Below the pieces are notes generated by a model. It was not told where the DNA came from. It saw nothing but the letters and a program-made list of their open reading frames with translations, and did not search any database. From the NCBI GenBank assembly GCA_913055615.1, contig CAJXKK010000024.1, positions 1 to 42,551 on the forward strand: a stretch of 42,551 nucleotides of DNA, written 5' to 3'. Every line of letters starts with the position of its first letter. The stretch's first letter is position 1. The DNA comes from an uncultured Ectothiorhodospiraceae bacterium. GTDB lineage: Bacteria; Pseudomonadota; Gammaproteobacteria; XJ16; Halofilaceae. Positions 17,167-36,288 of the stretch are shown here, piece after piece. Position numbers and translations under genes: made by a program.

Positions 17167-18354
17167 ATGAACCAGCTTGACAGAACGGCCCTGACGGCGA
17201 GCGTCTTCGCGATCGCTTTACTGTTCACCGGTGGCGCCATCGCCTCGGCCGTCGACGAACTCCCCGAGGAACTGCGGGACGAGCTCTACAATCCCGACAT
17301 GATGGACCCGAACCAGCCGCTGGAAGAAAGCGCGTACCGCGACTGGAAGGCGCCCAACCCTCCACCCTGGACGATCGGATTCGCGCAGTCTTACGCCGGT
17401 AACACCTGGCGTGCCAACGAAATGGAACGCCTGGAGAAGGTGCTGATCCCGAAGTGGAAGGAACTGGGCCTGATCGATGAAGTCATTATCACCCAGTCCA
17501 ACCTCGACGACTCGCGCCAGATCCAGCAGATCCGCCAGCTTGCCGACCAGGGCGTGGACGCGATCATGGTTTGCTGCTCCAATCCCACGGCGCTGAACCA
17601 GTCCGTCGAATACGCCTACGATCGCGGCATCCCGACCTTCTCCGCCACCGGGTACCTCACCTCGCCCTACTCCGTGAACTCCTCGGCGAACTTCGTCGTT
17701 GGCGGCCACATGCTCGGCGAGTGGATGGCGCAGGAGATCGGCGAGTCGGGCAAGGTCCTGAATGTCGAGGGTATCCCCGGCGCATCCGCCTCGGACTCCC
17801 AGGATCTCGGCATCAACATGGCGCTCGACGACTATCCGGATATCGAGATCGCCGGCACCGTCGCAGGCATGTGGACCGACCAGGTCGCGCAGAGCGAGAT
17901 CCAGCGGTGGCTCGCGACCCATCCCGGCCAACTCGACGGGATCATTATTCAGTCCGCGTCCGAACTCGGCGCGGTCCGTGCCCTGCAGCAGAGTGGGCGG
18001 GACATGATTCCGATCACGATCGGCGGTGAGGAAGGCGCGCTGTGCTACTGGCGCCAGAATCCCGACTACGTGTCCGCCGCCATCCATGCGTGGCCGCCCG
18101 GCACCGACTTCGAGATGAGCTGGAACATCATGATGCGCACGCTGCAGGGCCAGGGACCGAAGATCCAGTCGATCCTGACCCGACCGGTGAAGATGGACTT
18201 CGAGCAACTCGAGGCGGAACTCGACGAGGACTGCAGCGTCAATTCGAAGGGCTGGTACAACGTGCCGATCGAAGAATGGGCCGGCAAGGAGTATCTCGAC
18301 CAGTTCTTCCTGCGCCCGGCCGATCCGGAGCAATACGATCCGGATTCGCACTGA
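17167..18354 (+). CDS. Ribose-family (CUT2-like) ABC transporter substrate-binding protein
   Basis: A 395-residue periplasmic binding protein of the RbsB-like Peripla_BP_4 type. Signal peptide about 1-27 (SVFAIALLFTGGAIASA), no lipobox. About 40 acidic/proline-rich residues precede the fold. The core begins WTIGFAQSYAGNTWR and contains QIQQIRQLADQGVDAIMVC, GIPTFSATGY and QLDGIIIQSASELGAVRALQQ, as in sugar-binding members. It is the first gene of the ten-gene operon; GGAGG lies before the ATG. The ligand cannot be read from sequence: several aromatic residues (Trp, Tyr) fit a ring or hydrophobic ligand, but this is inference. A strong hairpin follows the gene. Confidence 0.93.
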   Translation: MNQLDRTALTASVFAIALLFTGGAIASAVDELPEELRDELYNPDMMDPNQPLEESAYRDWKAPNPPPWTIGFAQSYAGNTWRANEMERLEKVLIPKWKELGLIDEVIITQSNLDDSRQIQQIRQLADQGVDAIMVCCSNPTALNQSVEYAYDRGIPTFSATGYLTSPYSVNSSANFVVGGHMLGEWMAQEIGESGKVLNVEGIPGASASDSQDLGINMALDDYPDIEIAGTVAGMWTDQVAQSEIQRWLATHPGQLDGIIIQSASELGAVRALQQSGRDMIPITIGGEEGALCYWRQNPDYVSAAIHAWPPGTDFEMSWNIMMRTLQGQGPKIQSILTRPVKMDFEQLEAELDEDCSVNSKGWYNVPIEEWAGKEYLDQFFLRPADPEQYDPDSH

Positions 18355-18369
18355 GCACAGCCCCGTGTT

Positions 18370-18411: not shown

Positions 18412-18472
18412 GCTTCCCGGACGTCCGGTTCGGATCCACGCGCAGAACCGTATAAAGGAAAGTCGACGCCCC

Positions 18473-20671
18473 ATGGCGAGTGCCAGCGTAGAACTGACTT
18501 CCGTGCGCAAGACCTTCGGGCCCACCGTGGCGCTCGCTGACTGCAGTCTTACCGCGTATCCGGGCGAGGTCCACGCGATCGTCGGCGGCAACGGTTCCGG
18601 CAAGAGCACCCTGGCGAAGGTGATGTCGGGCGTGCTGATCCCGGACTCCGGCCAGGTCTCGGTCATGGGCCGCTCGCCCACGACACCCGTGGAGGCCCGT
18701 CGCGCCGGCGTAGCCAACGTATTCCAGGAAGTGCTGGTCGCCGACGGCTGCTCGGTCCTCGACAATCTCTATCTCGGCTCCGACGGTCTGTTCACGGCGT
18801 CCATGCACCGTGAGGACAAGATCGAACAGGCAAGCCGTTTCCTGCGCGATCTGCTGGGTTTCGATCTCGATCTGTCGACCCGCGTCGGCGATCTCCCCCT
18901 CAGCCTCAAGCAGTGGATCACCATCGCCCGCGGCATGCTCTCGGATCCGAACGTGCTGATCCTGGATGAGAGTTCGGCCGCGCTCGATTTCGAGTCGACG
19001 GAGCGGCTGTTCGCCAAGATGCGCGAACTCAAGGCGCGGGGCACCGCGCTGTTGATCGTGACGCATCGGGTCGCGGAACTGGTGCGAATCGCCGACCGCG
19101 CCACCGTGTTACGCGATGGGCGCGACGTGGGGTGCCTGACCCGCGAAGAAATCACCGAACACAGTATTCTTGAACTGATCGCCGGGCCGCAGAGCCAGTA
19201 CACCGACGTCATCGCCCCGATTCCCGAGCCGCAGGCCGAGCGCCCTGTTCTGCGCATCGAGCATGCCCGGATCTGGCCCGATGCAGAGAAGATCAACTTC
19301 ACGCTCTACCCGGGCGAGATCGTCGGGGTAACCGGGCTGGACGGCCAGGGCCAAGCGGACTTCGTCAAGGCGGTCGCCGGTGTCACACCACTCGTGTCGG
19401 GGCGCATCAGCGTGATCGAGGGGCGCACCGCGCACGGGATCGAGGACCTGCGCTCCGCGCGCGCGAATCGCATCAGCTACATCAGCGGTGATCGCAAGAA
19501 GGAAGGGATCTTCCCGAACCTCAGTATTTACGAAAATCTCGCCATGCCGGTGTACCGCGAGTACCGCACGGGCGGGTTCGTCAACATCACCAACAGCGCG
19601 AAGCTCGTGCCCGTCTTCGAATGGGAGACCGACAAGCTTCGGGTCAAGATGGGCAGCCGGCACGACCTGATCACGTCCCTGTCCGGCGGCAACCAGCAGA
19701 AGGTGCTGATCGCCCGATCTTTCGCCGAGAACCCGGCCGTGCTCGTGCTCAATGACCCGGCACGCGGCATCGATGTCGGCGCCAAACACGACCTCTATCG
19801 CAACCTGCAGAACTTCGCCGCCGCGGGGCACGCGGCCGTGTTCCTGTCCTCGGAGATCGAGGAGTTCATGCATCTGTGCAGCCGGGTGCACGTCTTTCGC
19901 AACGGCGCCGTCAGCAGCGAGTTCCGCCCGCCGTACGACACGAACGTGATTCTGAACGCGACCTTCGGACGCCGACTCACCGCGCCCCTCGCGGACGCCG
20001 GGGCGAATGGCGACACGGTGGACTCGATCGCCGACGGACCCGCCCCGATCCGCTTCGACGAAGGGCGGCCGATGCCCCGGTCGGTGGGCCCGGTCGCGGG
20101 ACCCCGATACCGGACCAGCGCCAACGACGGAGGCGAGACGATGGCCACGCAAGGCTCCGATTTCGCGCTTTCCTGTCCGGACATCGTGCCGGGACAGGTG
20201 ATCCCCGACCGCTTCGTCGAGGACAACGTCAATTCGCCCCACCTCACCTGGTCAGGCGTCCCGGAGGGGACCCGCGGCTTCGCGCTCGCGGTGACGGATC
20301 CGGATCTGCCCGAGGAGTTCGGCTTCCCGCGCAGCTTCGCCCACTGGCTCATCCACGACATCCCCGCGAACGTCCGCGACCTGCCCGAGGGCGCAAGCCA
20401 GACCGGCGCCATGCCGAGCGGTGCGCGCGAACTGAATTCCGACTTCGTGACCTTCCAGGTGCCCGGCTTCGGGCGCGGTTACGGCGGCCCGTGGCCACCG
20501 GACCGCCAGCATCGCTATTTCTTCACGCTTTACGCGCTGACCCGCGAGCGCATGAACCTGAACCCTGATGCCGATCTGGCCGATTTTTACGCGGCGGTGT
20601 TGCCCGTCGCCATCGATTCCGCGTCCTTCGTCGCGGTGTACGGACCCGCCCGGAAGCCGCTTCCGGCGTAG
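18473..20671 (+). CDS. Double ABC ATPase (RbsA/MglA type) fused to a PEBP/YbhB domain
   Basis: A 732-residue protein. Residues 1-500 are two ABC domains. NBD1 has Walker A GGNGSGKST (38-46), a degenerate signature (LSLKQW) and Walker B LILDESSAALD. NBD2 has the Walker A replaced by GLDGQGQAD (usual in RbsA), signature LSGGNQQKV (from 403) and Walker B LNDPARGIDVG, where the usual DE pair is Asn427-Asp428. A linker of about 50 residues leads to a complete PEBP/YbhB domain (about 557-732) with TDPDLP and GPWPPDRQHRYFFTLYAL. No stop separates the two parts, but GGAGG stands before an in-frame ATG at 20141, so a separate 176-residue PEBP could also be made. ATG 18473 was chosen because it follows AAAGGAAAG and starts the ABC fold; the open frame upstream is not protein-like. 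Confidence 0.92.
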   Translation: MASASVELTSVRKTFGPTVALADCSLTAYPGEVHAIVGGNGSGKSTLAKVMSGVLIPDSGQVSVMGRSPTTPVEARRAGVANVFQEVLVADGCSVLDNLYLGSDGLFTASMHREDKIEQASRFLRDLLGFDLDLSTRVGDLPLSLKQWITIARGMLSDPNVLILDESSAALDFESTERLFAKMRELKARGTALLIVTHRVAELVRIADRATVLRDGRDVGCLTREEITEHSILELIAGPQSQYTDVIAPIPEPQAERPVLRIEHARIWPDAEKINFTLYPGEIVGVTGLDGQGQADFVKAVAGVTPLVSGRISVIEGRTAHGIEDLRSARANRISYISGDRKKEGIFPNLSIYENLAMPVYREYRTGGFVNITNSAKLVPVFEWETDKLRVKMGSRHDLITSLSGGNQQKVLIARSFAENPAVLVLNDPARGIDVGAKHDLYRNLQNFAAAGHAAVFLSSEIEEFMHLCSRVHVFRNGAVSSEFRPPYDTNVILNATFGRRLTAPLADAGANGDTVDSIADGPAPIRFDEGRPMPRSVGPVAGPRYRTSANDGGETMATQGSDFALSCPDIVPGQVIPDRFVEDNVNSPHLTWSGVPEGTRGFALAVTDPDLPEEFGFPRSFAHWLIHDIPANVRDLPEGASQTGAMPSGARELNSDFVTFQVPGFGRGYGGPWPPDRQHRYFFTLYALTRERMNLNPDADLADFYAAVLPVAIDSASFVAVYGPARKPLPA

Positions 20672-20719: not shown

Positions 20720-21124
20720 GTGAGCAACTACAGCAGTCGCAAGAAGCTCGACCTCGAGTGGATCGAGCGCTGGGCGCGGATCGTTAATGACGACCGCATC
20801 CTGCCGGTCACGGGGCGATTCTTCACCAGCAAGTTCGTCATCGGGATCGATGACACCGACTATCTGGTCGAGGTCCAGGAGGGCAAGATCCGGCGGATCT
20901 TCGAGGGCCTGACGCCGAACAACTTCGGTTACGAGTTCGGCCTCAAGGCCTCCTCGACCACCTGGTCGAAATTCACGCAGCAGGTACCGCCACCGATGTT
21001 CAACGACATCTGGGCCATGTGCCATCCGCTGCACCAGAACATGGTGATCGAGGGCAACACGCTGACGTTCTGGCAAAACGTGCGCGCACTGACCCGCATG
21101 CTCGCCCTGATGCGCGAAGTCTGA
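20720..21124 (+). CDS. Small soluble protein, possibly SCP2-like
   Basis: A 134-residue soluble protein. The start is GTG at 20720, after the purine-rich GAGAGGGGAAA. The pattern (helix, then VTGRFFTSKFVIGIDDTDYLVEVQ strands, then WSKFTQQVPPPMFNDIWAM and a C-terminal helix) suggests a sterol-carrier-protein-2-like lipid-binding fold, but I hold this only weakly. It lies 22 bases before the hydrolase gene and both sit between the ATPase and permease genes. It may carry or present a hydrophobic substrate to the hydrolase. Confidence 0.8.
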   Translation: MSNYSSRKKLDLEWIERWARIVNDDRILPVTGRFFTSKFVIGIDDTDYLVEVQEGKIRRIFEGLTPNNFGYEFGLKASSTTWSKFTQQVPPPMFNDIWAMCHPLHQNMVIEGNTLTFWQNVRALTRMLALMREV

Positions 21125-21146: not shown

Positions 21147-22091
21147 ATGAACACGCACGAACCCATTGTCGGTCGATATGTCTACGTCCAGTGCGAGGGC
21201 CGTACCTATCGCGTCTTCTACGAGGAAGCCGGAGAAGGCATTCCGATGGTCTGCACGCACACGGCTGGTGCGGACTGCCGACAGTACCGCCACCAGCTTT
21301 GCGATCCGGATTACACCAAGCACTTCCGGATGATCACCTTCGACATGCCGTGGCATGGCAAGTCCAACCCGCCGGCCGACTTCTATCTCATGGAAGACGA
21401 GTACAAGCTGACCGAGCGCTTCTATTCGGAGTTCGTCGTGGCCTTCTGCCGGGCGCTCGATCTCGAGAAGCCGGTATTCATGGGCCAGTCGATGGGCGGC
21501 AACCTCTGCCTCGAGCTGGCGCTTCGTTACGAGAACGAATTTTCCGCGTTCATCGCCCTCGAGGGCTGTGACCACTCCCCGGGCTGGTGGATCGATCCGC
21601 TGAACCACCCCGCCATCGGCTGCGACGGCGTCGCCACGGCCATCTTTGGCCTGATGTCCCCGGAATCGCCCGACGAGTACCGCCACGAGACCTGGTGGTA
21701 CTACGCCCAGGGCGGCCCCGGCATCTTCAAGGGCGATCTGCACTACTACAGCACGGACAGCGACTTCCGCGACCGCGTGCACAAGATCTCCGGGCGCGTG
21801 CCGATCTATTTCCTCACCGGCGAATACGACTTCGCCTGTACCCCGGAGATGACGGAACGCACCGCGGAGAAGGTCAAGGGCTCGGAGTGCATCATCTTCT
21901 CGGGCGGCCACTTCCCGACCTCGGAGGACCCGGACAAGTTCAAGGAAGTCGTGGCGCCGGTGCTCAAGAAGATCGTGCAGAACGACCCGGGACGGCGCGG
22001 CGGAGACGCGGGCCGCGGCAGCGCCTCGTCGACAGAGAGCCGGTCCACTTCCAGCCGGCCCGAGCGCCGGGTCATCGATCTGGACCGATAA
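21147..22091 (+). CDS. Alpha/beta hydrolase
   Basis: A 314-residue serine hydrolase. The nucleophile elbow is GQSMGG with Ser115; the likely triad partners are Asp228 (GEYDFA) and His255 (GGHFP). The oxyanion region is HTAGAD. A cap region around 140-215 is rich in Trp and Tyr. No signal peptide, so it acts in the cytoplasm. The last 40 residues are Arg/Ser-rich and probably disordered. Its place inside the ABC operon suggests it acts on the imported compound, perhaps as an esterase or C-C hydrolase; the substrate is unknown. GGAG at 21135-21138 precedes the ATG. Confidence 0.92.
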   Translation: MNTHEPIVGRYVYVQCEGRTYRVFYEEAGEGIPMVCTHTAGADCRQYRHQLCDPDYTKHFRMITFDMPWHGKSNPPADFYLMEDEYKLTERFYSEFVVAFCRALDLEKPVFMGQSMGGNLCLELALRYENEFSAFIALEGCDHSPGWWIDPLNHPAIGCDGVATAIFGLMSPESPDEYRHETWWYYAQGGPGIFKGDLHYYSTDSDFRDRVHKISGRVPIYFLTGEYDFACTPEMTERTAEKVKGSECIIFSGGHFPTSEDPDKFKEVVAPVLKKIVQNDPGRRGGDAGRGSASSTESRSTSSRPERRVIDLDR

Positions 22092-22152: not shown

Positions 22153-23559
22153 ATGGGCCAGAACAGCGGAGCCGAGAAGACCTACCTCCTCGTGCCGATC
22201 CTGCTGATCGCGGTGCTGACGTCGACCGCGGTGATCCGCAGTCCCAGCCTGGTCACCCTCCCGGGGCTGGGTTCGGCGATCATCGTCGCGGCGCCGATCA
22301 TTCTGGCGACATATGCCCTGATGGCGACGACCATCGCCGGCCGCGGGACCATCGATCTCGCGGTCGGTCCGCTGCTGGCGTTCATCAACGTGACGATCGT
22401 CCGACTCAACGGCCTGGACATCGTCACGGACCCGATCCCCGTGTTCCTGCTGGCGCTGGGTATCGGCGTCCTTTACCAGATCCTGTTCGCGCTGGTCATC
22501 ATCGTCGTTCGCGTACAGCCGATCATTGTCGCCCTCTCCGGCTATCTCGCCCTGTCGGGCATCAACCTGGTGATCCTCCGGCGTCCGGGCGGTACCGCGC
22601 CGACGTGGATGAGCGACTGGGGCGCGGGTGAGACCATTTTCTCGCCGGTGCTGCTGATCGTGCTGCTTGCAACTGGCGGCTGGCTGCTGTTCACGGCGAC
22701 CACGTTCTACTCGAACCTGCGCATGATGGGGTACGACGAGCGCGCCGCCTACACGAGTGGCGTGCGCATCTATCTCGCACGTCTCGGCGCCCATGTCATC
22801 TCGGGGCTGTTCGTCGGCCTTGCCGCGATCTGTTACACGGCGCTGATCTCCTCCGGAAACCCCAATGCCGGCGGGCAGATCACGCTGACGGCGGTGACCG
22901 CGCTGGTCCTTGGCGGGGTCGCGCTGTCCGGTGGGCGCGGTTCGGTCACCGGTGCCCTGCTGGGCGCGGTGACGCTGTTCCTGATCGGCTACGTGCTCTC
23001 GACCTTCCAGTTCGGCGCGATCCAGTCGTTCGTGACCGACCTGGCCTACGGCACGATCCTCGTGTCGTCACTGCTGCTGACCCTGCTCGTGCCGATCGTG
23101 GCACGCCATATCTCGTTCGTGTCGCCGTATGCGGCGTTCATCGTGCTCGCCACTGTGGTGGGCGGCATCATCCTCCATGTCGCCACCTACGACAGCTTCG
23201 TCGTCGCCCCCAGCGTCGCGCAGGCACTCGGGGACCCCGTTGCCAACAAGGCGCTTGCGGTACCCGATGACAACCTCGTGCAGCGCTACTTCGTGCTGCC
23301 CGAAGTGGCGAGTGGCGGCACCGGCGGGATCGGGCCGGTCGCGCTGAGTCTGACGCCACTGCAGCAGATTGCATTCGCCACGGCGGCCATTCTCGTCCTG
23401 GTCGTGTTCACGGCGCGCATGTTCGTGGTCGAGGCGGTCACGCCGCGCCTGAGTCTGTTTCTGTACATATTCATCGGCGCGCTGATCGTACTGACCTTTG
23501 TCACGCTGGCCCAGAGCGGCCCGGGTGCGGCAGCCGCCGCCGCGGGAGAAATACCATGA
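22153..23559 (+). CDS. ABC permease, RbsC-like (BPD_transp_2), with extra C-terminal helices
   Basis: A 468-residue inner-membrane permease. The RbsC-like core (about 1-320) contains GRGTIDLAVGPLLAFINV and the cytoplasmic coupling segment VLGGVALSGGRGSVTGALLGA. Usual family length is about 320-350. After the core come three more hydrophobic segments (about 322-348, 398-420, 428-450) with a soluble loop at about 355-395, ending in an alanine stretch. The next permease gene overlaps by four bases, so the two should form a heterodimer with the binding protein and double ATPase. Confidence 0.92.
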   Translation: MGQNSGAEKTYLLVPILLIAVLTSTAVIRSPSLVTLPGLGSAIIVAAPIILATYALMATTIAGRGTIDLAVGPLLAFINVTIVRLNGLDIVTDPIPVFLLALGIGVLYQILFALVIIVVRVQPIIVALSGYLALSGINLVILRRPGGTAPTWMSDWGAGETIFSPVLLIVLLATGGWLLFTATTFYSNLRMMGYDERAAYTSGVRIYLARLGAHVISGLFVGLAAICYTALISSGNPNAGGQITLTAVTALVLGGVALSGGRGSVTGALLGAVTLFLIGYVLSTFQFGAIQSFVTDLAYGTILVSSLLLTLLVPIVARHISFVSPYAAFIVLATVVGGIILHVATYDSFVVAPSVAQALGDPVANKALAVPDDNLVQRYFVLPEVASGGTGGIGPVALSLTPLQQIAFATAAILVLVVFTARMFVVEAVTPRLSLFLYIFIGALIVLTFVTLAQSGPGAAAAAAGEIP

Positions 23560-24965
23560 GTGTCGCCGAACGCGAGACCGCGCGTCGCTCGCCACTCGCC
23601 GCGCCGCGCTCGATGTTCCTCCTCTGGTTCAACATCGCGCTGACCTTCGTGGTCGCGGCGATCGGTTTCGGCATGGGCTTCGCCCAGGGCCTCGCCGCGC
23701 AGCTCGTAATCCTCTACACGATCGTTTCCGCCGCGGTGTTCCTGTGGTTCGCCAACGCCGTCACCGTGGTATTCGAGGACCGGCTCGCGGCACCCGAGAC
23801 GCACGCGGACGAGGAAAGCGCCGCGCGGCAACCGTCGTGGTGGCGCCGCAACTGGGTGATGCTGCTCGCCATGGCGGTCCTGCTGGTGCTCTACCTGGTC
23901 GTCACGGCCACGGTCGAGGCATTCCGCCAGCTGGAATATCTGATCACCTTCGTGATCCTCGAGCTGATCCTGCTGTTCGCCTTCAAGGTGTCGGTGCATT
24001 TCCCGCGGACCCGTAGCGCCTTCATAGGGCTGATGATCCTTGCCGCCCTGCTGGTGATCAGCGCGTTCACCATCGACGGCTTCCTCTCCGCGCCCAGCAT
24101 CCGTGCGCTGCTGCTGTTCGCCGCCTTCCTCGGCATCGCCTCGGTGGGCCAGACCATGGTGGCGCTGCTCGGTGGCCTCGACCTGTCCATCCCATTCGTC
24201 ATCGGCGCGGCCAACATCGGTCTGCTGTTCCTGATATCGCTGGGTGTGCCGCCATGGGTCGCGACCGGCTTCGTGCTGCTCCTGGGCGCCCTGCTCGGCC
24301 TGATCAACGGACTGCTGTCGTACCGCCTGCAGGCCCAGGCCCTGATCATTACGCTCGGCACCGGGTTCGCGCTGGCCGGCCTCGTGCAGATCCTGACGAG
24401 CATAGGCTCCGAGCAGGCCGGCAACGTCATGGGCACGGTGCCCGGCTGGCTGCGGAACCTCGCGGCAATGAACGGCACGACGTTCGGCCTCGCGGTGCCA
24501 CCGGCGATCATCATCTGGATCGTCCTGTCGGTGCTGATCATCCTGTTCATGCGCTATACCGCCTACGGCCGGTACATCTACGCGCTTGGTGGAAACCGCG
24601 AATCGGCCCGCCTGCTCGGCATCTCCGAACTCAAGTACTGGACCCTCGCCTACATCGTCAGCGGCTTTTTCTCGGCGGTTACGGGCTGCCTGCTGCTCGG
24701 GTGGTCGGGAGGCGGGTTCATCGACGTCGGCGAGAACTACCTGTTCATGACGCTCGCGGCGGTCGTAATCGGCGGCACTTCGCTCGCCGGCGGCCAGGGC
24801 GGCTATGGCTTCACGGTCATCGGCGTACTGGTCCTGCAGCTTCTGTCCACCTTCCTGATCGGGATCGGACTGAATTACGAGTGGCAGCAGTTCATTTTCG
24901 GTCTGCTCATTCTCCCGATGGTCGCGCTCTACAGCCGGGCGCCCCCGATCCGGTCACAAGTATAA
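23556..24965 (+). CDS. ABC permease, RbsC-like, with extra N-terminal helices
   Basis: A 469-residue permease. The core of the family starts at about residue 150 (SAFIGLMILAALLVISAF) and includes LLGGLDLSIPFVIGAANIG and the coupling loop VIGGTSLAGGQGGYGF. In front are about four additional helices (18-40, 45-68, 93-115, 125-148) separated by a charged loop. The partner permease has its additions at the C-terminus instead. The ATG overlaps the upstream stop by four bases. The opsin-like gene begins 11 bases after the stop. Confidence 0.92.
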   Translation: MSVAERETARRSPLAAPRSMFLLWFNIALTFVVAAIGFGMGFAQGLAAQLVILYTIVSAAVFLWFANAVTVVFEDRLAAPETHADEESAARQPSWWRRNWVMLLAMAVLLVLYLVVTATVEAFRQLEYLITFVILELILLFAFKVSVHFPRTRSAFIGLMILAALLVISAFTIDGFLSAPSIRALLLFAAFLGIASVGQTMVALLGGLDLSIPFVIGAANIGLLFLISLGVPPWVATGFVLLLGALLGLINGLLSYRLQAQALIITLGTGFALAGLVQILTSIGSEQAGNVMGTVPGWLRNLAAMNGTTFGLAVPPAIIIWIVLSVLIILFMRYTAYGRYIYALGGNRESARLLGISELKYWTLAYIVSGFFSAVTGCLLLGWSGGGFIDVGENYLFMTLAAVVIGGTSLAGGQGGYGFTVIGVLVLQLLSTFLIGIGLNYEWQQFIFGLLILPMVALYSRAPPIRSQV

Positions 24966-24976
24966 AGGGTCCGTTC

Positions 24977-25666
24977 ATGAACGATACGCTCTACCGGTCC
25001 GCCGACATCGTCACCACCTCGCTCACCACGGCGACCGTGGCGACACTCGCCGCCGGCCTCCTGTGCGCGCTCGGCCTATCCTGGACTTCGGACAAGTGGC
25101 GCCCGCCGCTCGCCCTCGCCTGCGTGGCACTGCTCGCCTCCGGCGTCGCCTATCTGCAGGCGCTCGGTATCTGGCAGGCCGTGGGCGAACTCAGCGCCGC
25201 GCCGCGTTACGTCGGCTGGTACACCGCCCAGCCCGCGCTCGTCGCCGCCGCCTTCTTCTACGCGCGCGTCGCCGGCCCCGTTCCCGTCGGCGTGTTCTGG
25301 CGCTCGGTCGTCGCTGCCCTGTTGATGGTCTTCAGCCGCTGGCTGGGCGATGCGCAGATCTTCGATCCCACCCTGGGCGCCCTGCTGTCGATCGCCTTCT
25401 GGCTCTACATTCTGGGCGAACTGTATTTCGGCGCCATGAGCAACGCGGTGCGCGGGCGTTCGCGGCCCATCCGTTCTGGTTATTTCTGGCTGCGGCTGAT
25501 CATGACGATCGGCTGGGCAATCTACCCGATTCTGCATTTCGTCGACGTGGTGATCGGTGTCGGACATGTGCCGAGCATCATCGTCCTGTACACCGTGGCG
25601 GACCTGGTGAACCTCATCACGCTCGCTCTGATTTATCTCTCCGTGGCCGGCAAGGAACGGTACTGA
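24977..25666 (+). CDS. Opsin-fold (proteorhodopsin-like) protein lacking the retinal lysine
   Basis: A 229-residue seven-helix protein homologous to proteorhodopsin along its length. Shared landmarks: KW (40-41) at the helix B start, GIW (64-66), RYVGW (77-81, helix C), LGDA (123-126), GELY (147-150), GWAIYP (179-184, helix F, identical to proteorhodopsin) and VADLVNL (207-213, helix G). The retinal Schiff-base lysine position is Leu213 (codon CTC at 25613-25615). The counterion Asp97 position is Gly80 and the donor Glu108 position is Ala91; the Asp227 equivalent is kept (Asp209). It cannot be a normal light-driven pump. It sits 11 bases after the permease gene and 55 before the flotillin gene, so it is probably co-expressed as a structural, sensory or ligand-binding subunit. 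No retinal or carotenoid genes are in the window. Confidence 0.9.
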   Translation: MNDTLYRSADIVTTSLTTATVATLAAGLLCALGLSWTSDKWRPPLALACVALLASGVAYLQALGIWQAVGELSAAPRYVGWYTAQPALVAAAFFYARVAGPVPVGVFWRSVVAALLMVFSRWLGDAQIFDPTLGALLSIAFWLYILGELYFGAMSNAVRGRSRPIRSGYFWLRLIMTIGWAIYPILHFVDVVIGVGHVPSIIVLYTVADLVNLITLALIYLSVAGKERY

Positions 25667-25721: not shown

Positions 25722-27923
25722 ATGACTGGTGCAGACGCAATCGCCATTCTCATTCTGCTCACGATCGTCATAGCGATCGGGGTATACCTGCTGCACTGGC
25801 TCTACCGCCACTCGTCGAAGAATCAGAGCTTCGTCCGCACGGGTGTGGGGGGTGAGCGAGTCGTGATGGGCGGCGGCGCTTTCGTGCTGCCGATCATCCA
25901 CGACGTGACCGTCGTGAACATGAATGCGGTGCCGATCGAGATCCGCCGCGCCGGCGAGCACTCTCTGCTGACCAAGAACAAGATGCGGATCGACGTCATC
26001 GCTGAATTCGACGTCCGGGTCGTGCCCACCGAGGAAGGCGTATCGACCGCCGCGCGCAGTCTGGGCGAACGCACGGCCAACCCGGCCGCGCTGCAGGAGG
26101 TGATACAGGGCCGTTTCGTCGACGCCATGTCGGCTATCGCCGCCCGCCACTCGATGGAGGCAATTCACACCAATCGCCTCGACTACATGAAGGAGGTGAC
26201 AGGCCTCGTCGAAGAGACGCTCACCCGACATGGACTGGAACTCGAGAACGCATCTCTGACCTCACTCAATCAATCCGATATCACGGTATTCGATCCGCGC
26301 AACGCCTTCGACGCAGAGGGCCTGACCCAGCTGACGGAACAGGTCGAAGCCGGACGCCGACGGCGCAATGAGATCGAGAATGAGACCCGCGTCGCCATCC
26401 GGGTCCGTGACTATGAGGCCGAGCAGCGTTCGCTGGAGATCGACCGCGACCTCGAATACGCGCGCCTCGAGCAGTCCCGGGATATCGAGCGGCAGCGCTC
26501 CAGGCAGCAGGCGGAGATCGAGGAAGAGCGCGCAAGTTCCGATATCAGCATCCATACCTCTAAAACACGCGCCGAGGAAGAAGCGGAGCGCATCCGCATC
26601 GACAAAGACCGCGCGGTCAACGAGGAACGAATCAACTCGGATAACCAGGTCCGTGCGCTGGAGATCCAGCGCCGTGAAGAGAACGAACTGCAGGCCATCA
26701 ATGCGGAACGGGCGATCGACGCCCAGCGCATCGTCAGTCAACAGTCGATCGAGGTGGAGCGCATCGACAATGAACGCAAGACGCGTGTGTCCGAGATCCA
26801 GTCGCGCCACGAGGTCGCGATCCGCGAGGCGAACGCTGACGCCGAGATCGACACCACACGCCAGGAACGGGAGCGGGAGATCGAGGAGAGCCGCATCGCC
26901 ACCCACAACGCCATCGAAATACTCTCGGTGGACAAGGCCCGGGAACTGAAGATCGCAAGCGAGCGGGCGACCGCGGAGGAGCACCTGGCGGCGATCGCGC
27001 GTCATTCGGTGGTGGACCAGGAGCGCCTCCAGCACGAAGAAGATGTCGCCCAGCGCAGGATCAACAAGGAACACACGATCAAGCTGGCCGAAACGAGTTC
27101 GATGCGCGAGACGGAAGACGCGAACATCGCGGCGCAGCGCGAGATCGAGGAAATGCGCGTCTCCGCACAGAAGTTCATCGAACGCTTCGAGATCGAACAG
27201 CAGAAGGAGGTCGAGATCGTCGACAAGGACCGCCTCATCGCGGTCGTCAACAAGTCGATCGAGGAAGCGGTGGCCCGCACGGACGAGGCCAAACACGAGA
27301 AGCTGTTCGCGCAGGCCGAAGAGGAAGTCTCGAGCGCCCGGGCACTCGAGATCGCCGATCGCAACAAGCGGGTCGAACAGGTCGAGGCGAGTTCGCGTGC
27401 CGAGCGCGAGGCATTGCGCGTCACGCGACACGCCGAAGCCGAACGCGCGGCCGCCGAGGAACGCGCCCAGGCGGAGATCGCCGAGGCGAACGCGGCCGAG
27501 GTGCGTTACGACAAGGACGCCGAGGGTGCGCGCAAGCTCAACGAGTCCGAGAACACGCGCAACGAGCAGAGTCGCCGCAGCGCGATCTACGAGCACCTGG
27601 TCAAGACCCTGCCCGAGATCATCGAGCAGACCGTCAAGCCGATGGAGAATATCGACTCCATAAAGATCATGCAGGTCGATGGGCTGCCGGGCATCAACAG
27701 CCCGTCGGAATCGACCGAAAACGGCGAAGATTCCGGTGGTCCGGGCGGCGGCAACATGACCGACCGCGTGGTCAACTCGGCCATGAAGTACCGGACCCAG
27801 GTGGCCTTCGTGGACGGGCTCATGAAGGATCTCGGTCTGCCCCTCGACAGCATCGGCAGTGCCGGCGGCATGTCGTTCCGCAACTTCGCGGAGTCCGACA
27901 AGGGCGACCAGGGCGACAACTGA
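25722..27923 (+). CDS. Flotillin/SPFH-family membrane scaffold protein (long form)
   Basis: A 733-residue protein. One N-terminal membrane helix (about 6-28), then an SPFH/band-7 domain (about 38-205: GVGGERVVMGGGAFVLPIIHDV, SLLTKNKMRIDVIAEFDVRV), then an extremely long Glu/Arg/Ala coiled coil (about 208-620) and a C-terminal oligomerisation-type region with LVKTLPEIIEQTVKPMENIDSIKIMQVDG and a Gly-rich linker. Typical flotillins (FloT, YqiK) are 480-560 residues, so the coil is enlarged. Flotillins organise membrane microdomains and recruit partner complexes. Lying between the opsin-like and four-helix membrane protein genes, it probably scaffolds the transport complex. Confidence 0.94.
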   Translation: MTGADAIAILILLTIVIAIGVYLLHWLYRHSSKNQSFVRTGVGGERVVMGGGAFVLPIIHDVTVVNMNAVPIEIRRAGEHSLLTKNKMRIDVIAEFDVRVVPTEEGVSTAARSLGERTANPAALQEVIQGRFVDAMSAIAARHSMEAIHTNRLDYMKEVTGLVEETLTRHGLELENASLTSLNQSDITVFDPRNAFDAEGLTQLTEQVEAGRRRRNEIENETRVAIRVRDYEAEQRSLEIDRDLEYARLEQSRDIERQRSRQQAEIEEERASSDISIHTSKTRAEEEAERIRIDKDRAVNEERINSDNQVRALEIQRREENELQAINAERAIDAQRIVSQQSIEVERIDNERKTRVSEIQSRHEVAIREANADAEIDTTRQEREREIEESRIATHNAIEILSVDKARELKIASERATAEEHLAAIARHSVVDQERLQHEEDVAQRRINKEHTIKLAETSSMRETEDANIAAQREIEEMRVSAQKFIERFEIEQQKEVEIVDKDRLIAVVNKSIEEAVARTDEAKHEKLFAQAEEEVSSARALEIADRNKRVEQVEASSRAEREALRVTRHAEAERAAAEERAQAEIAEANAAEVRYDKDAEGARKLNESENTRNEQSRRSAIYEHLVKTLPEIIEQTVKPMENIDSIKIMQVDGLPGINSPSESTENGEDSGGPGGGNMTDRVVNSAMKYRTQVAFVDGLMKDLGLPLDSIGSAGGMSFRNFAESDKGDQGDN

Positions 27924-27960: not shown

Positions 27961-28025
27961 GCCACGACCCGCACGCCCCGCGGTACCGGCGATTCGCGCG
28001 GAGGCCCCCGGCTTTGGAGAAGGCG

Positions 28026-28496
28026 ATGGAAAACGGCACTGACGAGGGATCCGACGCGTGGGGGCGGCTCGACCGCCACGCGCTCGTGATGTCGATCTGG
28101 CTCGCGATCGGATTCGTGGCGGTCGCCCTGCTCGCGCGCGGTTTGCAGGCGATGGAAGCCATTCCCGTGTTCGGCGCCTTTACGGTGGTGATCACCGGAT
28201 TCGTTGCTCACGTAATCATCAACGCCGTCAGCCACACGCATTTCTCCGCGCGCGAGGTCGCGCTCGGGCTGGTGGCCTATGCGCTCGGGCTTATCGGGTT
28301 CCTGCTCGCGCTGCTGCTCCGCAGTGAGCCGGCGCTGGCGCTGTTCGTCCCGCTGAGTATCGGTCTGCTGGTACTGGCGGTAGTGGCGATCTTCTACATG
28401 GTCACGCACTTCGGCGCCCGCGGCGCTTTCCGCGCCTTCGACGTGATCAGCGATTTCGGCCCGGACGAAGTCCGGCGCCGGGACACGCAGGGTTGA
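28026..28496 (+). CDS. Four-helix membrane protein of unknown function
   Basis: A 156-residue protein with four predicted membrane helices (about 20-40, 48-68, 78-100, 107-130) and a charged C-terminus (GPDEVRRRD). The ATG at 28026 is preceded by GGAGAAGG; a TTG four codons earlier is in frame but overlaps this site. I do not recognise the family. It lies 13 bases before the symporter gene and resembles in size and position the small accessory subunits often encoded beside SSS symporters, so a stabilising role is a reasonable guess. Confidence 0.82.
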   Translation: MENGTDEGSDAWGRLDRHALVMSIWLAIGFVAVALLARGLQAMEAIPVFGAFTVVITGFVAHVIINAVSHTHFSAREVALGLVAYALGLIGFLLALLLRSEPALALFVPLSIGLLVLAVVAIFYMVTHFGARGAFRAFDVISDFGPDEVRRRDTQG

Positions 28497-28509: not shown

Positions 28510-30420
28510 ATGACCACCCTGCTCATCGGCGTGCTCGGATTCTTCTTCGTCTACGCGGTGTACATCGCCGCGCTGACGGCGCGCTGCGCGCACGCGCCCG
28601 AGGAGTACCTGGACGGCGGCTCGAGCCTGCCGCCGTGGTGTTTCATGTTCGCCGGCACGGGCATCGTCATCGCGGGGATCGGGCTCTACGATCATTTCCT
28701 GCTCCTCGCGCTGTACGGGCTGCAGTACAACCACGTCGCCATGGGTGTCGTGCTGGCCGCCCTCGCGGGCGTACTGGTACACAAGCGGCTGCTGCTGGCC
28801 GCGCGCATCAGCGGCCACCGCACGCTGGGCAATCTGCTCAGCGCCTACTACGGTTCGGTCACCCTGCGCGTGCTGACGCTCGTGCTGGTCCTGCTGTTCG
28901 CGGTGCCCTTCGCCGGCCAGAGCCTGTCGCGCCTCGGCGCGATCATCGCGAGCGCGACCGGCGACACGATCGAACGTGCCGAGGCCATCTGGGCGTGCGC
29001 GTTCTTCCTGTTTCTCGCCGGCGTGATCGGCGGTTGGCGCGGGACGATCTATGCGATCGGCGCCCAGGCCGTTGTGCTGGTCACGCTGATCGTGTTCGTC
29101 GGGGTCGGCGGGGCCGCCGGCCTCGGATGGACCGCACTCGTGTACGGCGATGTGCCCGCCCCGGAAGGCATCCTCAGCGAAGCGATCCCTGGCGTAATGC
29201 AGTATTCCGCCGGCATCGGCAAGGAAGAGACCATCGGCGGCCTGTGGACCACGACGGCGGTGTTTTCGCAGGCGCTCGCGTTCATCGGCATCGTGCTCAG
29301 CCCCGCGTTCACGCTGCTGGGCATGACGACGCGTCCACCGGCGCACTACGCGTTCAAGCAGGTTTGGCTGACCGCCGGGCTCGCCACGGGCGTGCTGTTG
29401 CTGGCCGCGCCCTTCATTGGCGCGGGCGTGGCGCTTGCCCATTCCGGCCCCCTGCGCGAGGCCACGGTAAGCTATACCGGCGTGCTTACGGCCCTGGTGG
29501 ACGTCGATGCCATGCTCGCCGTGGGCTTCGTGCTGATGCTCGCCGCCGCGCTGCAGATCGTCGTGGCCTTCTTCGCTCAGTCCGGGGCGAGCCTGTTCGT
29601 GATCGAACTGCTCGGCCGCGACCTCCTCCCCGATCTGTCTCCCGACGGCCGACGTCTGACGGCACGCGTCACGCTGGGCGTGATCTACCTCACGATCGCC
29701 CTGCTCGCCGCCTATGCGCCGCTGCTCGCCGAGATCGGTGGTGGCCTCGCGCTCTCGCTCTCGGTGCAATTACTGCCCGCGCTGATCGGTCTGTGCTGGG
29801 TCCGCTGGATCAGCCGCAGCGCCGTGCTCGCGGGGTTGATCTTCGGCATTCTGCTGGTCCTGTTCACCGAACCGCTGGGGCTGCTCGTATTCGAGAGCCT
29901 GTTCGTGGACCTGCCCTGGGGGCGCTGGCCGCTGACGATCCATTCCGCTGGCTGGGGGCTGGCCTTCAACATCGCCGCCTGCCTGCTCGCCAGCATCTTC
30001 ACCGCCCGCGATGCCGAGCGTGGCACGCGCGACCGCCTGCACGACGTCTTCCTGCGCGAGCACCGTCAGGACCTCGGTGGACCCGCGGCGCGCGGGGCGA
30101 AGTGGTCGCTGATCCTCGTCTGGGCCTTCTTCGCCCTCGGGCCGGGTGCCATCCTCGGCAACCGGTTCTTCTCCGACCCCATGTTCAGCGAACTCACGCC
30201 CGCGCTTCTGCTGCCGTCGCTATGGGTGTGGCAGATCCTGTTCTGGCTGCTGGGCGTGTTCATCGCATGGTGGCTGGCTTACAAAGCCGGGATGTCGGTA
30301 CTGAATCGCCCGATCGTCTTCCGCCTGCAGCTGGAACCGGAACGACCGTCATTCGAGCAGGGGGCGCCGCGCTGGCTGGAACAGTTCGTCAGGCGGGTGG
30401 CCCCGCGTCAGACATCATGA
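28510..30420 (+). CDS. Sodium:solute symporter family (SSS) protein
   Basis: A 636-residue membrane protein with about 13 helices. The start ATG at 28510 follows GAAGGAG. The N-terminal pattern (CAHAPEEYLDGGSSLPPW, then GNLLSAYYGSVTLRVLTLVLVLLFAVPFAGQSL) and LQIVVAFFAQSGASLFVIELLGRDLL fit the APC-type SSS fold. The usual length is 480-570 residues; the C-terminus here has extra helices (about 535-560 and 572-595). Last gene of the operon. It gives the cluster a second, ion-coupled uptake route beside the ABC importer, possibly for a product released by the hydrolase. Confidence 0.88.
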   Translation: MTTLLIGVLGFFFVYAVYIAALTARCAHAPEEYLDGGSSLPPWCFMFAGTGIVIAGIGLYDHFLLLALYGLQYNHVAMGVVLAALAGVLVHKRLLLAARISGHRTLGNLLSAYYGSVTLRVLTLVLVLLFAVPFAGQSLSRLGAIIASATGDTIERAEAIWACAFFLFLAGVIGGWRGTIYAIGAQAVVLVTLIVFVGVGGAAGLGWTALVYGDVPAPEGILSEAIPGVMQYSAGIGKEETIGGLWTTTAVFSQALAFIGIVLSPAFTLLGMTTRPPAHYAFKQVWLTAGLATGVLLLAAPFIGAGVALAHSGPLREATVSYTGVLTALVDVDAMLAVGFVLMLAAALQIVVAFFAQSGASLFVIELLGRDLLPDLSPDGRRLTARVTLGVIYLTIALLAAYAPLLAEIGGGLALSLSVQLLPALIGLCWVRWISRSAVLAGLIFGILLVLFTEPLGLLVFESLFVDLPWGRWPLTIHSAGWGLAFNIAACLLASIFTARDAERGTRDRLHDVFLREHRQDLGGPAARGAKWSLILVWAFFALGPGAILGNRFFSDPMFSELTPALLLPSLWVWQILFWLLGVFIAWWLAYKAGMSVLNRPIVFRLQLEPERPSFEQGAPRWLEQFVRRVAPRQTS

Positions 30421-30497: not shown

Positions 30498-31475
30498 TCA
30501 GTCTTCCTGATCGGCCCGCGGCGCACGCCTGACGCCCATCTCGTCGAGATTGGTCAGCCAGTGCCCGGTCGCGCGCAGGTCCTCGAGAGTCGAGCGGCAG
30601 ATCTCTTGCACGGCCAATCCCGCCGAGGTGAGCCGTCGATCGAACGGCTGCACGAGATGCACGGTACGGCCGAATGGCGGGTCGCCGATCGGCCAGCTGC
30701 GCACGCGCCCGTCCGCCACCTCTTCCGCGATCGCGTTGGCCGGCAGGATCGACAGCCCTTCACCGTGCTGAACAAGCGTCTTGATCGCCTTGTACGAGTT
30801 GATTTCGGTGACCGTAGACAGCGCGAGTCCGTGTTTGTCGAGTTCGGTCTGGATGAGACTGCGCAGGCCATGACTCGTGCCGGGCAGCACCAGCGGGAGT
30901 TCGGGAATGGCGGTGATGTCTATGGACGCACCATCGGCAGGCACCTGATCCGACTCGAATTCCGCCGGCGCGAAAAGATACAGCTGTTCGGTAGCGATCG
31001 GCGTCGAGCGCAGTCCGCGCTCGTGGATCGGCAGGTACAGCACGCCCAGGTCAACCCGGCTTTCGTACAGCCACTCGAGTATAAAACCGGACATCGCCTC
31101 GGCGATCTTCAGGCGGATGCGCGGATAGCGTTCGCGGGCCCGCAGAATCAGCGGGACGGCGAGCAGTTCGGCGATCGTGCCCGGCAGTCCGAGGTGGACC
31201 TCGCCGGCGGGGTCGTTTGCGTGTTCCTGCACCGCCTGCTTGGCACTCTGGAAGTCGGATATGATTTCACGGGCCCGCTGCAGCAGCACGAGACCGGCAT
31301 CGGTCGGGACCACGCCCTGGGGCGTACGGACCAGCAATTCCGTGCCGAGGTCCGCCTCCATATTGCGCACGTGCAGGCTGAGCGCCGGCTGAGCCACGTG
31401 CAGCTTCTGCGCCGCACGCGAAAAGGATTCGGCTTCAACCACCGCAACGAAGTAGCGAAGCTGACGAATATCCAA
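30498..31475 (-). CDS. LysR-family transcriptional regulator
   Basis: A 325-residue LysR regulator. The N-terminal winged helix-turn-helix reads RQLRYFVAVVEAESFSRAAQ and LHVAQPALSLHVRNME; the effector-binding domain starts near residue 90. The start is TTG at 31475 with GGAGGG eight bases upstream; the longer frame from 31531 is not LysR-like. It is divergent from the CitE-like gene, the classical layout for a LysR activator of the adjacent operon. By analogy with the Pseudomonas itaconate locus it may respond to itaconate or a related dicarboxylate. It could also control the transport operon, whose end faces it. Confidence 0.95.
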   Translation of the reverse strand: MDIRQLRYFVAVVEAESFSRAAQKLHVAQPALSLHVRNMEADLGTELLVRTPQGVVPTDAGLVLLQRAREIISDFQSAKQAVQEHANDPAGEVHLGLPGTIAELLAVPLILRARERYPRIRLKIAEAMSGFILEWLYESRVDLGVLYLPIHERGLRSTPIATEQLYLFAPAEFESDQVPADGASIDITAIPELPLVLPGTSHGLRSLIQTELDKHGLALSTVTEINSYKAIKTLVQHGEGLSILPANAIAEEVADGRVRSWPIGDPPFGRTVHLVQPFDRRLTSAGLAVQEICRSTLEDLRATGHWLTNLDEMGVRRAPRADQED

Positions 31476-31654
31476 GTGCTGTTTCCCTCCGGATTGAGCG
31501 ACAGTTCCGGGCCATCACTTTTCGCGATCACGGCTCCAGAAAAACTGTCTTGGTTGCGGGACAGAGTCTCCGCTTATGCTTTTACTTGTCAAATGGTATC
31601 CGCTGCGGCGATCGCCGCTTCATCGGTATCGGGTCCACGCAGGAGGTCCTTGCG
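31476..31654. promoter_or_regulatory. Divergent promoter region, LysR gene / catabolic operon
   Basis: This 179-base gap is noticeably more AT-rich than its surroundings. A candidate promoter for the plus-strand operon is TTGGTT (31550-31555), an 18-base spacer and TTATGC (31574-31579). LysR half-sites should lie upstream, but I could not pin a convincing T-N11-A palindrome. AGGAGGTCC at 31641-31649 is the ribosome binding site of the lyase gene. Confidence 0.4.
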
Positions 31655-32533
31655 ATGACGGGCGAAAATCTCCGGGATGCCCCACCCGAACTGCCGATCT
31701 TCGTGCCGGCCACGCGCCCGGATCGATTCGAGCGGGCGGCCCGATCGGGCGCCGATTGCATCATTATCGATCTGGAGGATGCCCTGCTCCCCGATGAGCG
31801 GCCACCGGCACGGGCTGCACTCGCGCGGATCCTGCCCAATCTGTGTCCGTCCGTACCCGTCCTGTTGCGCGTCAACGCGGCCACAACGGCCGATTTCCCG
31901 GCCGACCTCGACCTGCTGGACGCTGGCGGTACCGACGGCATCGTCCTGCCCAAGGCCGAGGCGCAGGTTGATCTGCGCGCGCTCCGCGAGCGCCTGCCGC
32001 GCAACGCCTCGATCCTCGCGCTGATCGAGACGCCACGGGGCCTGGCGGACGCGCGTACGCTCGCTGACCAGGCGGATCGCCTCGCCTTCGGCTCCATCGA
32101 TTATGCGCACACGGTGGGTATTGACCACACCGCCGATGCGCTTCTGAGCGCCCGCTCGGAGATCGTGCTGGCGGCCGCCCTCGCCGACGCTCCGAAGCCC
32201 TTCGACGGTGTGACACCGGGTATCGACAGCGACATGCCGGTCGAGCGCGACGCCGGGCGGGCCGCGGCACTGGGTTTCGGTGGCAAGCTGTTGATCCACC
32301 CCGCCCAGATCATCCCGGCCATCCGCGGATTCCAGCCTCAGCGTGAGGATGCCGACGAGGCGCGCGAACTCATCGTGCGTGCCGAGGGCGGCGTCAGCCG
32401 TTTCCGTGGCCGGATGATCGACCGCCCCGTACTCGATGCAGCCCGCCGGCGGGTAGCGGCGTTCGATCGCGCCGAGCAGCGCCTTGCCGCCATCCGTGCT
32501 GGCTCCGCGAGTGCCGGTACGGACCGGGTATAG
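31655..32533 (+). CDS. CitE-like lyase, probable citramalyl-CoA lyase
   Basis: A 292-residue HpcH/HpaI-CitE-family TIM-barrel lyase. Mg-binding and catalytic motifs seen: CIIIDLEDALLPDER, LRVNA, GIVLPKAE, ALIETPRGLADA and FGSIDYAHTVG, plus GFGGKLLIHPAQI. Such enzymes cleave malyl-, citryl- or citramalyl-CoA; stand-alone CitE proteins in itaconate loci split citramalyl-CoA to acetyl-CoA and pyruvate. The ATG at 31655 follows AGGAGGTCC; the frame upstream is not conserved-looking. First gene of the LysR-flanked operon. The CoA-transferase and hydratase downstream support the citramalyl-CoA assignment, though malyl-CoA activity cannot be excluded. Confidence 0.92.
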   Translation: MTGENLRDAPPELPIFVPATRPDRFERAARSGADCIIIDLEDALLPDERPPARAALARILPNLCPSVPVLLRVNAATTADFPADLDLLDAGGTDGIVLPKAEAQVDLRALRERLPRNASILALIETPRGLADARTLADQADRLAFGSIDYAHTVGIDHTADALLSARSEIVLAAALADAPKPFDGVTPGIDSDMPVERDAGRAAALGFGGKLLIHPAQIIPAIRGFQPQREDADEARELIVRAEGGVSRFRGRMIDRPVLDAARRRVAAFDRAEQRLAAIRAGSASAGTDRV

Positions 32534-32674
32534 GACACCGATATGCCCCCCAGCGCAAACAGGTCTTTGCAAGGGAAGGGTTTTTCCACGAACGTCGAAC
32601 GTGCTCCCAGCCCACGCGGAGAGCCCGAATGGCTGACCACAGCCCAAAGGACTGCTCATCGTCCCTCGCGGCAA

Positions 32675-32688
32675 GCCCGGGAACGGGC
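32675..32688 (+). promoter_or_regulatory. GGAA tetraloop hairpin before the CoA-transferase ribosome binding site
   Basis: GCCCG and CGGGC close a GGAA (GNRA-type) tetraloop immediately before the AAAGGAGGAT ribosome binding site at 32691-32700. The 173-base gap in which it sits is the longest in this operon, so a role in processing or translation control is possible. Confidence 0.35.
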
Positions 32689-32706
32689 ACAAAGGAGGAT
32701 CATCCA

Positions 32707-33840: not shown

Positions 33841-33871
33841 GTCCGCCGGCCGCAGACGCGGAGTGAACGAC

Positions 33872-35347: not shown

Positions 35348-35395
35348 TGCCACACGCTCCCATCCACTCCAGCCCCGCGACGACAGTGAGAACCC

Positions 35396-36247
35396 ATGGA
35401 CAGTGACCGCTTTTCCGAATGGATCGGGCGCACCGAAACGAGCCGGGACAGGATCATCGCCGGATCCGCTCGAGCGATGGCCGCGACCCTGGATCGAGAG
35501 ACGTCTCCGACCGCCGACGGAATGCCCCTGCCGCCGCTGTGGCATTGGCTCTACTTTCTGGAAACTCCGCGGAGCTGCGAACTCGGTACGGATGGCCACA
35601 TGAAACGCGGCGGGTTCCTGCCACCGATCGAACTGCCGCGCCGGATGTGGGCCGGCAGCCGTCTGCGGTTCCATCAGCCCCTGCGGCTCGGCGAGCAGGC
35701 GGAACGCGTGTCCCGGATCGCCCATGTCGAAGAAAAGCACGGGCGCAGCGGCCAACTCGCGATCGTCACCGTTGAACATCGCATCAATGGGGCGTCGGGG
35801 CCGGCGATCACGGATGAGCACGACATCGTCTATCGCGAGGAACCGCGCCCGGATGCACCCATACCACCCGGCAAGGAACCGCCCGCGGATGCCGTGTGGT
35901 CCGTGGCGCGCAGCGCCGATCCCATAATGCTGTTCCGCTACTCCGCTCTGACGTTCAACAGTCACCGCATCCATTACGACGAGCCCTATGCCACCGGTGT
36001 CGAGGGCTACTCCGGGCTCGTCGTTCACGGCCCGCTGGTCGCCACCCTGCTCGCCGAGGAGTGCGCCACGCGGTTCCCCGAACGCGCGATCACCGCACTC
36101 CATGTGCGTGCGTTGCGCCCCTTGTACCACGGCACGACTTTTCACCTGTGCGGACGCCCCGCGAGCGACGGCAGCACCGTGGACCTGTGGTGCGTCGATG
36201 AAGTCGGCGCGATGACCATGGAGGTCACGGTCGAACTCGCGGACTGA
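35396..36247 (+). CDS. FAS1-like/MaoC double hot-dog hydratase (mesaconyl-C4-CoA / itaconyl-CoA hydratase type)
   Basis: A 283-residue hydratase with two hot-dog halves. The C-terminal half carries the hydratase-2 motif YSALTFNSHRIHYD (residues 182-195) with the catalytic His/Asp, then GLVVHGPLVATLLAE. The N-terminal half (MPLPPLWHWLYFLE, GGFLPPIELPRRMWAG) is the inactive-type domain typical of 3-methylfumaryl (mesaconyl-C4)-CoA hydratases. In itaconate breakdown the homologous enzyme turns itaconyl-CoA or mesaconyl-CoA into citramalyl-CoA, the substrate of the CitE-like lyase encoded upstream. Confidence 0.92.
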   Translation: MDSDRFSEWIGRTETSRDRIIAGSARAMAATLDRETSPTADGMPLPPLWHWLYFLETPRSCELGTDGHMKRGGFLPPIELPRRMWAGSRLRFHQPLRLGEQAERVSRIAHVEEKHGRSGQLAIVTVEHRINGASGPAITDEHDIVYREEPRPDAPIPPGKEPPADAVWSVARSADPIMLFRYSALTFNSHRIHYDEPYATGVEGYSGLVVHGPLVATLLAEECATRFPERAITALHVRALRPLYHGTTFHLCGRPASDGSTVDLWCVDEVGAMTMEVTVELAD

Positions 36248-36288
36248 ACGCCAAACCCGACGACGGTGAGACCGTCTCAACCGGATCG

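Follow-up and report, generated by a model that had tools for sequence, protein, structure and literature searches.

A lysine-less flotillin-associated rhodopsin as a probable light-independent subunit of a flotillin-scaffolded ABC importer

Results

The 42,551-nucleotide stretch of DNA analyzed here (the window) was found to encode, at positions 24977 to 25666 of the forward strand, a flotillin-associated rhodopsin (FArhodopsin) of 229 amino acids without the retinal lysine, which on balance appears to serve, independently of light, as a subunit of an ABC importer scaffolded by flotillin. The parts of this reading are not equally firm: the protein very probably works independently of light, and it is likely to be part of the membrane module of the importer. 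Loss of the pigment-holding residues, set against the strictly kept place of the gene between the permeases and flotillin, points to a role in transport and not in light.

By Pfam, solved-structure and fold comparison, the window gene is a microbial rhodopsin. PF01036 (Bac_rhodopsin) covers residues 13-223 of the protein (E 3.6e-13, 49.9 bits, cut-off 24.6), and the best match by sequence to a solved structure was PsFAR (PDB 9r21, E 5.1e-28). An AlphaFold2 model built from 14 sequences (the window protein and related loci) displayed seven long helices at a mean pLDDT of 88.4. When this model was used for fold search, opsins headed the matches, with PsFAR 9r21 the best (TM-score 0.90/0.88; Z 29.9) and no non-opsin family scoring better, in agreement with the opsin fold claimed in a first-pass annotation of the DNA. 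A chance match was excluded because of the seven-helix model, the PsFAR TM-score and the presence in 13 other genomes of homologues with 44-68% identity and common neighbors. These 13 relatives were located in genome contigs, many of them from named Mesorhizobium strains and others from Taklimakanibacter and several MAGs.

Alignment to proteorhodopsin (PR) placed Leu213 (codon CTC, 25613-25615) at Lys231, Gly80 at Asp97, Ala91 at Glu108, A84 at Thr101 and R121 at Gly138. The residues of a light-driven proteorhodopsin pump (Schiff-base lysine, Asp97 acceptor and Glu108 donor) are thus absent from the window opsin and replaced by Leu, Gly and Ala, and the description of the gene as a lysine-less proteorhodopsin homologue was correct to the base at these three sites. 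D209 (Asp227) and the aromatic pocket residues W81, W142, W180 and Y183 are retained. Sequencing error at the lysine site, already considered unlikely in the first-pass annotation, was ruled out, as all Leu-type relatives also have Leu.

The window opsin belongs to the published family of FArhodopsins, so the gene is not of a new kind. The 2023 description of this family drew on marine single-cell genomes and metagenomes (Haro-Moreno et al., PMC10308929). The novelty that had been implied for a lysine-less opsin does not hold, since freshwater members in which Gln, Thr, Leu or Arg takes the place of the lysine were already reported in that study; the lysine was kept in all marine FArhodopsins and absent from most freshwater ones, and flotillin always adjoined the lysine-less forms where contigs were long enough (PMC10308929). 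In a 66-row tree, the window opsin was found with PsFAR inside the FArhodopsin (FAR) clade of the proteorhodopsin family (support 99/91), on a long branch (0.42). All 32 lysine-less relatives formed one clade (support 100/100), to which the lysine-bearing FArhodopsins, including PsFAR, L029, L030 and L071, were sister. The lysine-less clade was split into a Leu type (L-type) of 21 rows, the window included, and an Arg type (R-type) of 11 rows.

The presence of lysine-less FArhodopsins in named isolates (Mesorhizobium, Martelella, Hoeflea and Taklimakanibacter) is new, and among the papers searched none dealt with rhizobial FAR clusters or with PsFAR. The hosts are soil and water bacteria, mostly without another rhodopsin. 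Further relatives were recovered from whole-genome surveys and from plasmids of Shinella, Pararhizobium, Martelella and Hoeflea. The distribution of the cluster is patchy, as exemplified by its occurrence in 8 of 146 genomes of the Mesorhizobium genus set.

Pfam analysis of the neighboring genes confirmed that the opsin lies inside an ABC importer operon and is followed by flotillin. The operon is that of a CUT2-like sugar importer, with all parts present on the forward strand: a periplasmic substrate-binding protein (17167-18354; Peripla_BP_4, E 8.9e-37) conserved in both L-type and R-type loci; a sugar-type ATPase with two nucleotide-binding stretches (18467-20671; two PF00005 matches), of which the start is uncertain as the open reading frame (ORF) begins at 18365; and two BPD_transp_2 permeases. 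The ATPase carries a C-terminal phosphatidylethanolamine-binding-protein (PEBP) domain (PF01161), a fusion found in Leu-type clusters only and not detected in Arg-type or lysine-bearing ones. Between ATPase and permeases are a conserved 134-residue protein (20720-21124) and an alpha/beta hydrolase (21147-22091; PF00561, E 2.1e-17; 64-80% identity across L-type loci). The 134-residue protein had no match in the PDB and in Pfam gave a weak likeness to the sterol carrier family SCP2 alone, a family matched by 5 of 16 relatives (best E 0.011). Permease 1 (22153-23559) was distinguished by length comparison as having a long C-terminal membrane extension, and permease 2 (23556-24965) has an N-terminal extension of about 140 residues with four predicted helices (residues 20-147).

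The end of the permease 2 ORF (24965) and the opsin ATG are separated by 11 bases, and the opsin stop and the flotillin ATG (25722) by 55 bases, exactly as first noted. Flotillin (25722-27923, forward strand; SPFH/Band_7 domain PF01145, E 7.5e-12; Flot domain PF15975, E 2.1e-31) was the next gene in all loci. It is followed on the same strand by a conserved small protein with four predicted helices (28014-28496; start at 28014 or 28053) and by a divergent member of the sodium:solute symporter family with 16 predicted helices (28510-30420; best E 5.9e-10 by profile against solved SSS transporters), relatives of which matched PF00474 in 9 of 17 cases (best E 4.1e-26). A LysR-type regulator is encoded on the reverse strand (30498-31475), and most L-type loci have similar LysR genes close to the cluster. 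A scan for promoters and terminators gave fewer matches than shuffled sequences would lead one to expect. The window thus has in common with the published FArhodopsins (PMC10308929) its position in the FAR clade, a same-strand flotillin neighbor, a membrane translocator (permease), a sodium symporter, a hydrolase and an SCP-like gene, the SCP2 likeness being weak.

A probable catabolic neighborhood, assigned to the system by proximity only, extends on the forward strand from 31550 to 38887 and includes genes for a RipC/CitE-like lyase, a CoA-transferase III, a FAS1/MaoC-like hydratase, an acyl-CoA dehydrogenase and an MmgE/PrpD protein. This set of enzymes suggests the degradation of a branched dicarboxylic acid of the C5 type, similar to itaconate or methylsuccinate.

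When compared across loci with intact flanks, the order permease 2-opsin-flotillin was found to be kept in 33 of 33, a count that includes Leu, Arg and lysine-bearing types and excludes a thirty-fourth contig that starts inside the cluster; the check on gene order proposed in the first-pass annotation was thus answered in favor of conservation. Genes downstream of the importer varied by type. Leu-type clusters are followed by a CoA-transferase, hydratase, acyl-CoA dehydrogenase and sometimes a RipC-like lyase, with a succinate-semialdehyde dehydrogenase (SSADH) gene in two Mesorhizobium genomes (L106, L107). Arg-type clusters add attM (AHL lactonase; NF045700 passes the NCBIfam cut-off) and an iron-dependent alcohol dehydrogenase, often together with SSADH; FAR operons linked to these genes are L056, L057, L058 and L096-L103, of which three are on plasmids and one is typed conjugative. 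The catabolic neighbors in the window are unlike this attM type. We take the Arg-type enzyme set to resemble the Agrobacterium attKLM route from lactone to hydroxy acid, semialdehyde and succinate.

Residues of the former retinal pocket were compared among the 32 lysine-less rows of the alignment. Lys231 is replaced by Leu or Arg in all, Asp97 by Gly or Ala, and Glu108 by Ala, Ser or Thr; Asp227 is retained (Glu in two rows), as are the aromatic residues corresponding to W81, W142, W180 and Y183 of the window. Position 138 (R121 in the window) is Arg in 32 of 32 lysine-less rows, whereas 29 canonical rows have Gly there and the four lysine-bearing FArhodopsins have Glu. This position, equivalent to Gly122 of bacteriorhodopsin, faces the beta-ionone ring of retinal; an invariant Arg at the ionone site is a new feature of the lysine-less members. 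The two types also differ at position 94: Leu-type opsins keep Arg94 and have Leu at 231, and in Arg-type opsins (L056-L058, L063-L069) Arg occupies 231 and position 94 is His or Pro (unread in one). Each type is therefore left with a single strong cation beside Asp227. In the Arg-type opsins, loss of Arg94 coincides exactly with the change of Lys231 to Arg, a swap that retains one strong cation.

A chemoreceptor-like sensor, in which the former pocket would take up a ligand other than retinal and the protein would signal to the importer or flotillin so as to regulate the complex rather than build it, is unlikely in our estimate. In its favor, neither the aromatic box nor R121 varies within the lysine-less clade. 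Consistent with a sensor, retinal-free proteorhodopsin holds decanoate in the equivalent pocket by a salt bridge to the lysine (PMC11322631), and haloarchaeal lysine-less opsins adjoin transducers (PMC4915679). A signaling partner would be needed, however, and no transducer, kinase or cyclase gene was recognized in the conserved core of the opsin loci, so that the permeases themselves would have to serve. Conservation of the pocket may also be structural: pocket positions of lysine-less opsins were more conserved than other helix positions (0.50 vs 1.22 bits), but a similar contrast was detected for canonical proteorhodopsins (0.28 vs 1.17 bits). Pocket conservation, which may reflect just the buried core, was thus dropped as proof of ligand binding. 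The E120 residue of PsFAR aligns with window R121 and is altered in PDB 9r23, an H84V/E120G double mutant, which suggests that its depositors linked this site to the pocket.

The relationship of the opsin to the importer was next considered at the level of the permeases. With a permease 2 profile, 13 full-length matches of more than 670 bits were detected among 362 genomes of a single order, all in FArhodopsin-carrying genomes, and the next four matches (448-482 bits) covered the core alone, from residue ~134. The opsin profile had no match in the genomes of these four unextended homologues. All 13 N-extended permease 2 genes thus lie in opsin operons, and all four unextended ones in importer operons without an opsin, a contrast whose numbers overstate its weight, as they come from one order and few independent events. 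The four opsin-free operons encode the ATPase, short permeases and SSADH, with a hydrolase in three and, in the fetched stretch, a binding protein in three of four; opsin, flotillin, four-helix protein and symporter were found in none of them. Permease 1 was likewise longer with the opsin: 445-539 residues in lysine-less operons and 735-746 in lysine-bearing FAR clusters, compared to 321-324 without an opsin. In three lysine-bearing FAR clusters (L092, L093 and L104), permease 1 of 735-746 residues has 18-19 predicted helices. The AlphaFold model of window permease 2 was poor (pLDDT 50.3).

Based on this co-occurrence, the opsin, flotillin, small protein, symporter and permease extensions would thus form a module added to a simpler importer. 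The module is the best available evidence tying the opsin to the importer and is correlative, drawn from a limited sample with shared ancestry. As regards the "transporter subunit" proposed in the first-pass annotation, the tie of the permease extensions to opsin operons speaks for it indirectly; operon partners may or may not be in physical contact.

The same extensions bear on a structural role in which the opsin would be an oligomeric, lipid-organizing platform for flotillin, made for raft assembly and with no specific contact to the importer. Flotillin is indeed the most constant neighbor, in marine clusters as well (PMC10308929), the PsFAR and proteorhodopsin entries contain five chains each, and the PEBP domain and SCP2-like protein are lipid-related neighbors. 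Such a platform leaves unexplained, however, both the restriction of the permease extensions to opsin operons and the invariant, buried Arg121, and we regard it as rather improbable.

Host genomes were also analyzed for other opsins and for retinal synthesis, the latter by search for the synthase Blh. The window genome was found to carry a canonical proteorhodopsin with a DTE motif and the lysine kept (L001; G000:C13:55247-55927) and, ~5 kb beyond it, a Blh-type retinal synthase (L048; C13:60717-61442). It was the only lysine-less genome tested with both. Among the other 27 lysine-less genomes (28 with the window; some incomplete drafts or MAGs, several isolate genomes), a second PF01036 gene was detected by profile search in none of 27, and Blh above the cut-off in none of 27. 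Three genomes with lysine-bearing FArhodopsins (G374, G227 and G1007) also had neither. A second, canonical proteorhodopsin, as reported for marine FArhodopsins, is thus found in the window genome alone among the lysine-less genomes tested and does not define this subgroup. Two other genomes of the window's genus had no PF01036 gene; both opsins of the window genome look horizontally acquired, or lost in the genus relatives.

These results bear on the function put forward for FArhodopsins in 2023 (PMC10308929), namely assistance to a co-resident light-driven pump. Applied to the window, the lysine-less opsin would enter mixed oligomers with the canonical proteorhodopsin and tune this proton pump, for which the window genome does hold the DTE proteorhodopsin and Blh. 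The lack of both in the 27 other lysine-less genomes argues against FArhodopsins in general assisting a co-resident pump, as do the three lysine-bearing genomes; a general helper is disfavored, and we consider this function very unlikely for the window opsin. Still less probable is a light sensor with non-covalent retinal or carotenoid. Its aromatic box is kept, but a charged Arg stands at the ionone site of every member, the positions altered in the PsFAR mutant point to that site too, the 27 other genomes have no Blh, and there is no counter-ion.

Pairwise dN/dS was 0.02-0.24 in 13 pairs of lysine-less genes, which are therefore under purifying selection. None of the close homologues in the window's operon type retains the lysine, and together with the single clade this removes the possibility, raised in the first-pass annotation, that the window copy is a decayed outlier. 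That the opsin is a decaying former proteorhodopsin retained by chance, as loss of the lysine and of both counter-ion positions and the long window branch might suggest, is refuted by this selection across the clade, the lack of stops, the gene order intact in all 33 loci, and the fixation of Leu/Arg at 231 and Arg at 138 in 32 divergent sequences of one origin.

Discussion

We propose that the seven-helix opsin serves as an accessory subunit that would lie beside the extra membrane domains of a CUT2-like importer with enlarged permeases. The opsin, probably oligomeric as in the five-chain PsFAR and proteorhodopsin entries, would make physical contact with the permease extensions and be held in place at the importer by flotillin, in an assembly that would also include the small four-helix protein and the sodium:solute-symporter-like protein. 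The imported substrate would be small and organic, probably a lactone, ester or short carboxylic acid, and would be degraded by the neighboring enzymes; this class was chosen because the attM lactonase, iron-dependent alcohol dehydrogenase and SSADH adjoin the R-type clusters.

A ligand held by Arg121 is a tentative element of the proposal. We speculate that a lipid or carboxylate may be bound in the remaining aromatic pocket in the opposite sense to the lysine-bound decanoate (PMC11322631). The full sequence of events, in which the opsin docks on the extra transmembrane domains of the permeases and an R121 pocket binds a carboxylate or lipid that gates or stabilizes transport in a flotillin microdomain, is more doubtful still.

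Comparison with known systems places these results as follows. Leu and Arg at the Lys231 site were reported for FArhodopsins of freshwater metagenomes, as here (PMC10308929). The lysine-less forms of that study were on short metagenomic contigs, where the presence of another rhodopsin could not be decided, whereas those described here come from named isolates and genomes close to complete, most of which have no other opsin, and lie within a full ABC importer operon. The extended permeases and the invariant Arg at PR 138 are features of the present set that go beyond the earlier account. PsFAR (9r21; mutant 9r23, released 2025), the best match by both sequence and fold, has the lysine, Asp97 and Glu at 138, by contrast to the Leu, Gly and Arg of the window opsin. 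Canonical proteorhodopsins (4jq6, 7b03 and the C13 copy of the window genome) have the fold, the aromatic pocket residues and Asp227 in common with the window opsin, which differs in the loss of the lysine, Asp97 and Glu108 and in the replacement of Gly138 by Arg.

Other opsins without the lysine appear to be differently placed. According to the summary given in PMC10308929, Rh-noK of betaproteobacteria is xanthorhodopsin-related, forms a tandem with the gene of a functional rhodopsin and became functional again once the lysine was restored (Yamauchi et al. 2019). Rh-noK and the window opsin are, as far as that summary goes, both lysine-less bacterial opsins; no opsin neighbor was found in the window or in homologous loci. 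The haloarchaeal opsin-related proteins (Becker et al. 2016, PMC4915679) are type 1 opsins mostly encoded beside chemotaxis transducers. Similarly to the window opsin, they have the lysine replaced by a hydrophobic residue, Leu or another; by contrast, the window opsin adjoins an ABC permease and flotillin and has no HAMP/MCP signal transducer.

The current proposal for the function of FArhodopsins is based on marine cells that have not been cultured. The lysine-less branch is found in named rhizobia and their relatives, in which there is no other opsin or Blh, and is thus amenable to deletion mutants; the permease extensions and R121 provide direct residues for testing. If the proposed role is correct, this seven-helix receptor fold, best known for its use of light, would in bacteria have a further function that does not depend on light.

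One further FAR-clade opsin was observed, L072 (G877, 1477-2148), which keeps the lysine and has Ala at position 138; it lies on a contig of 4 kb only, and one in-frame TAG was reported for it by the survey.
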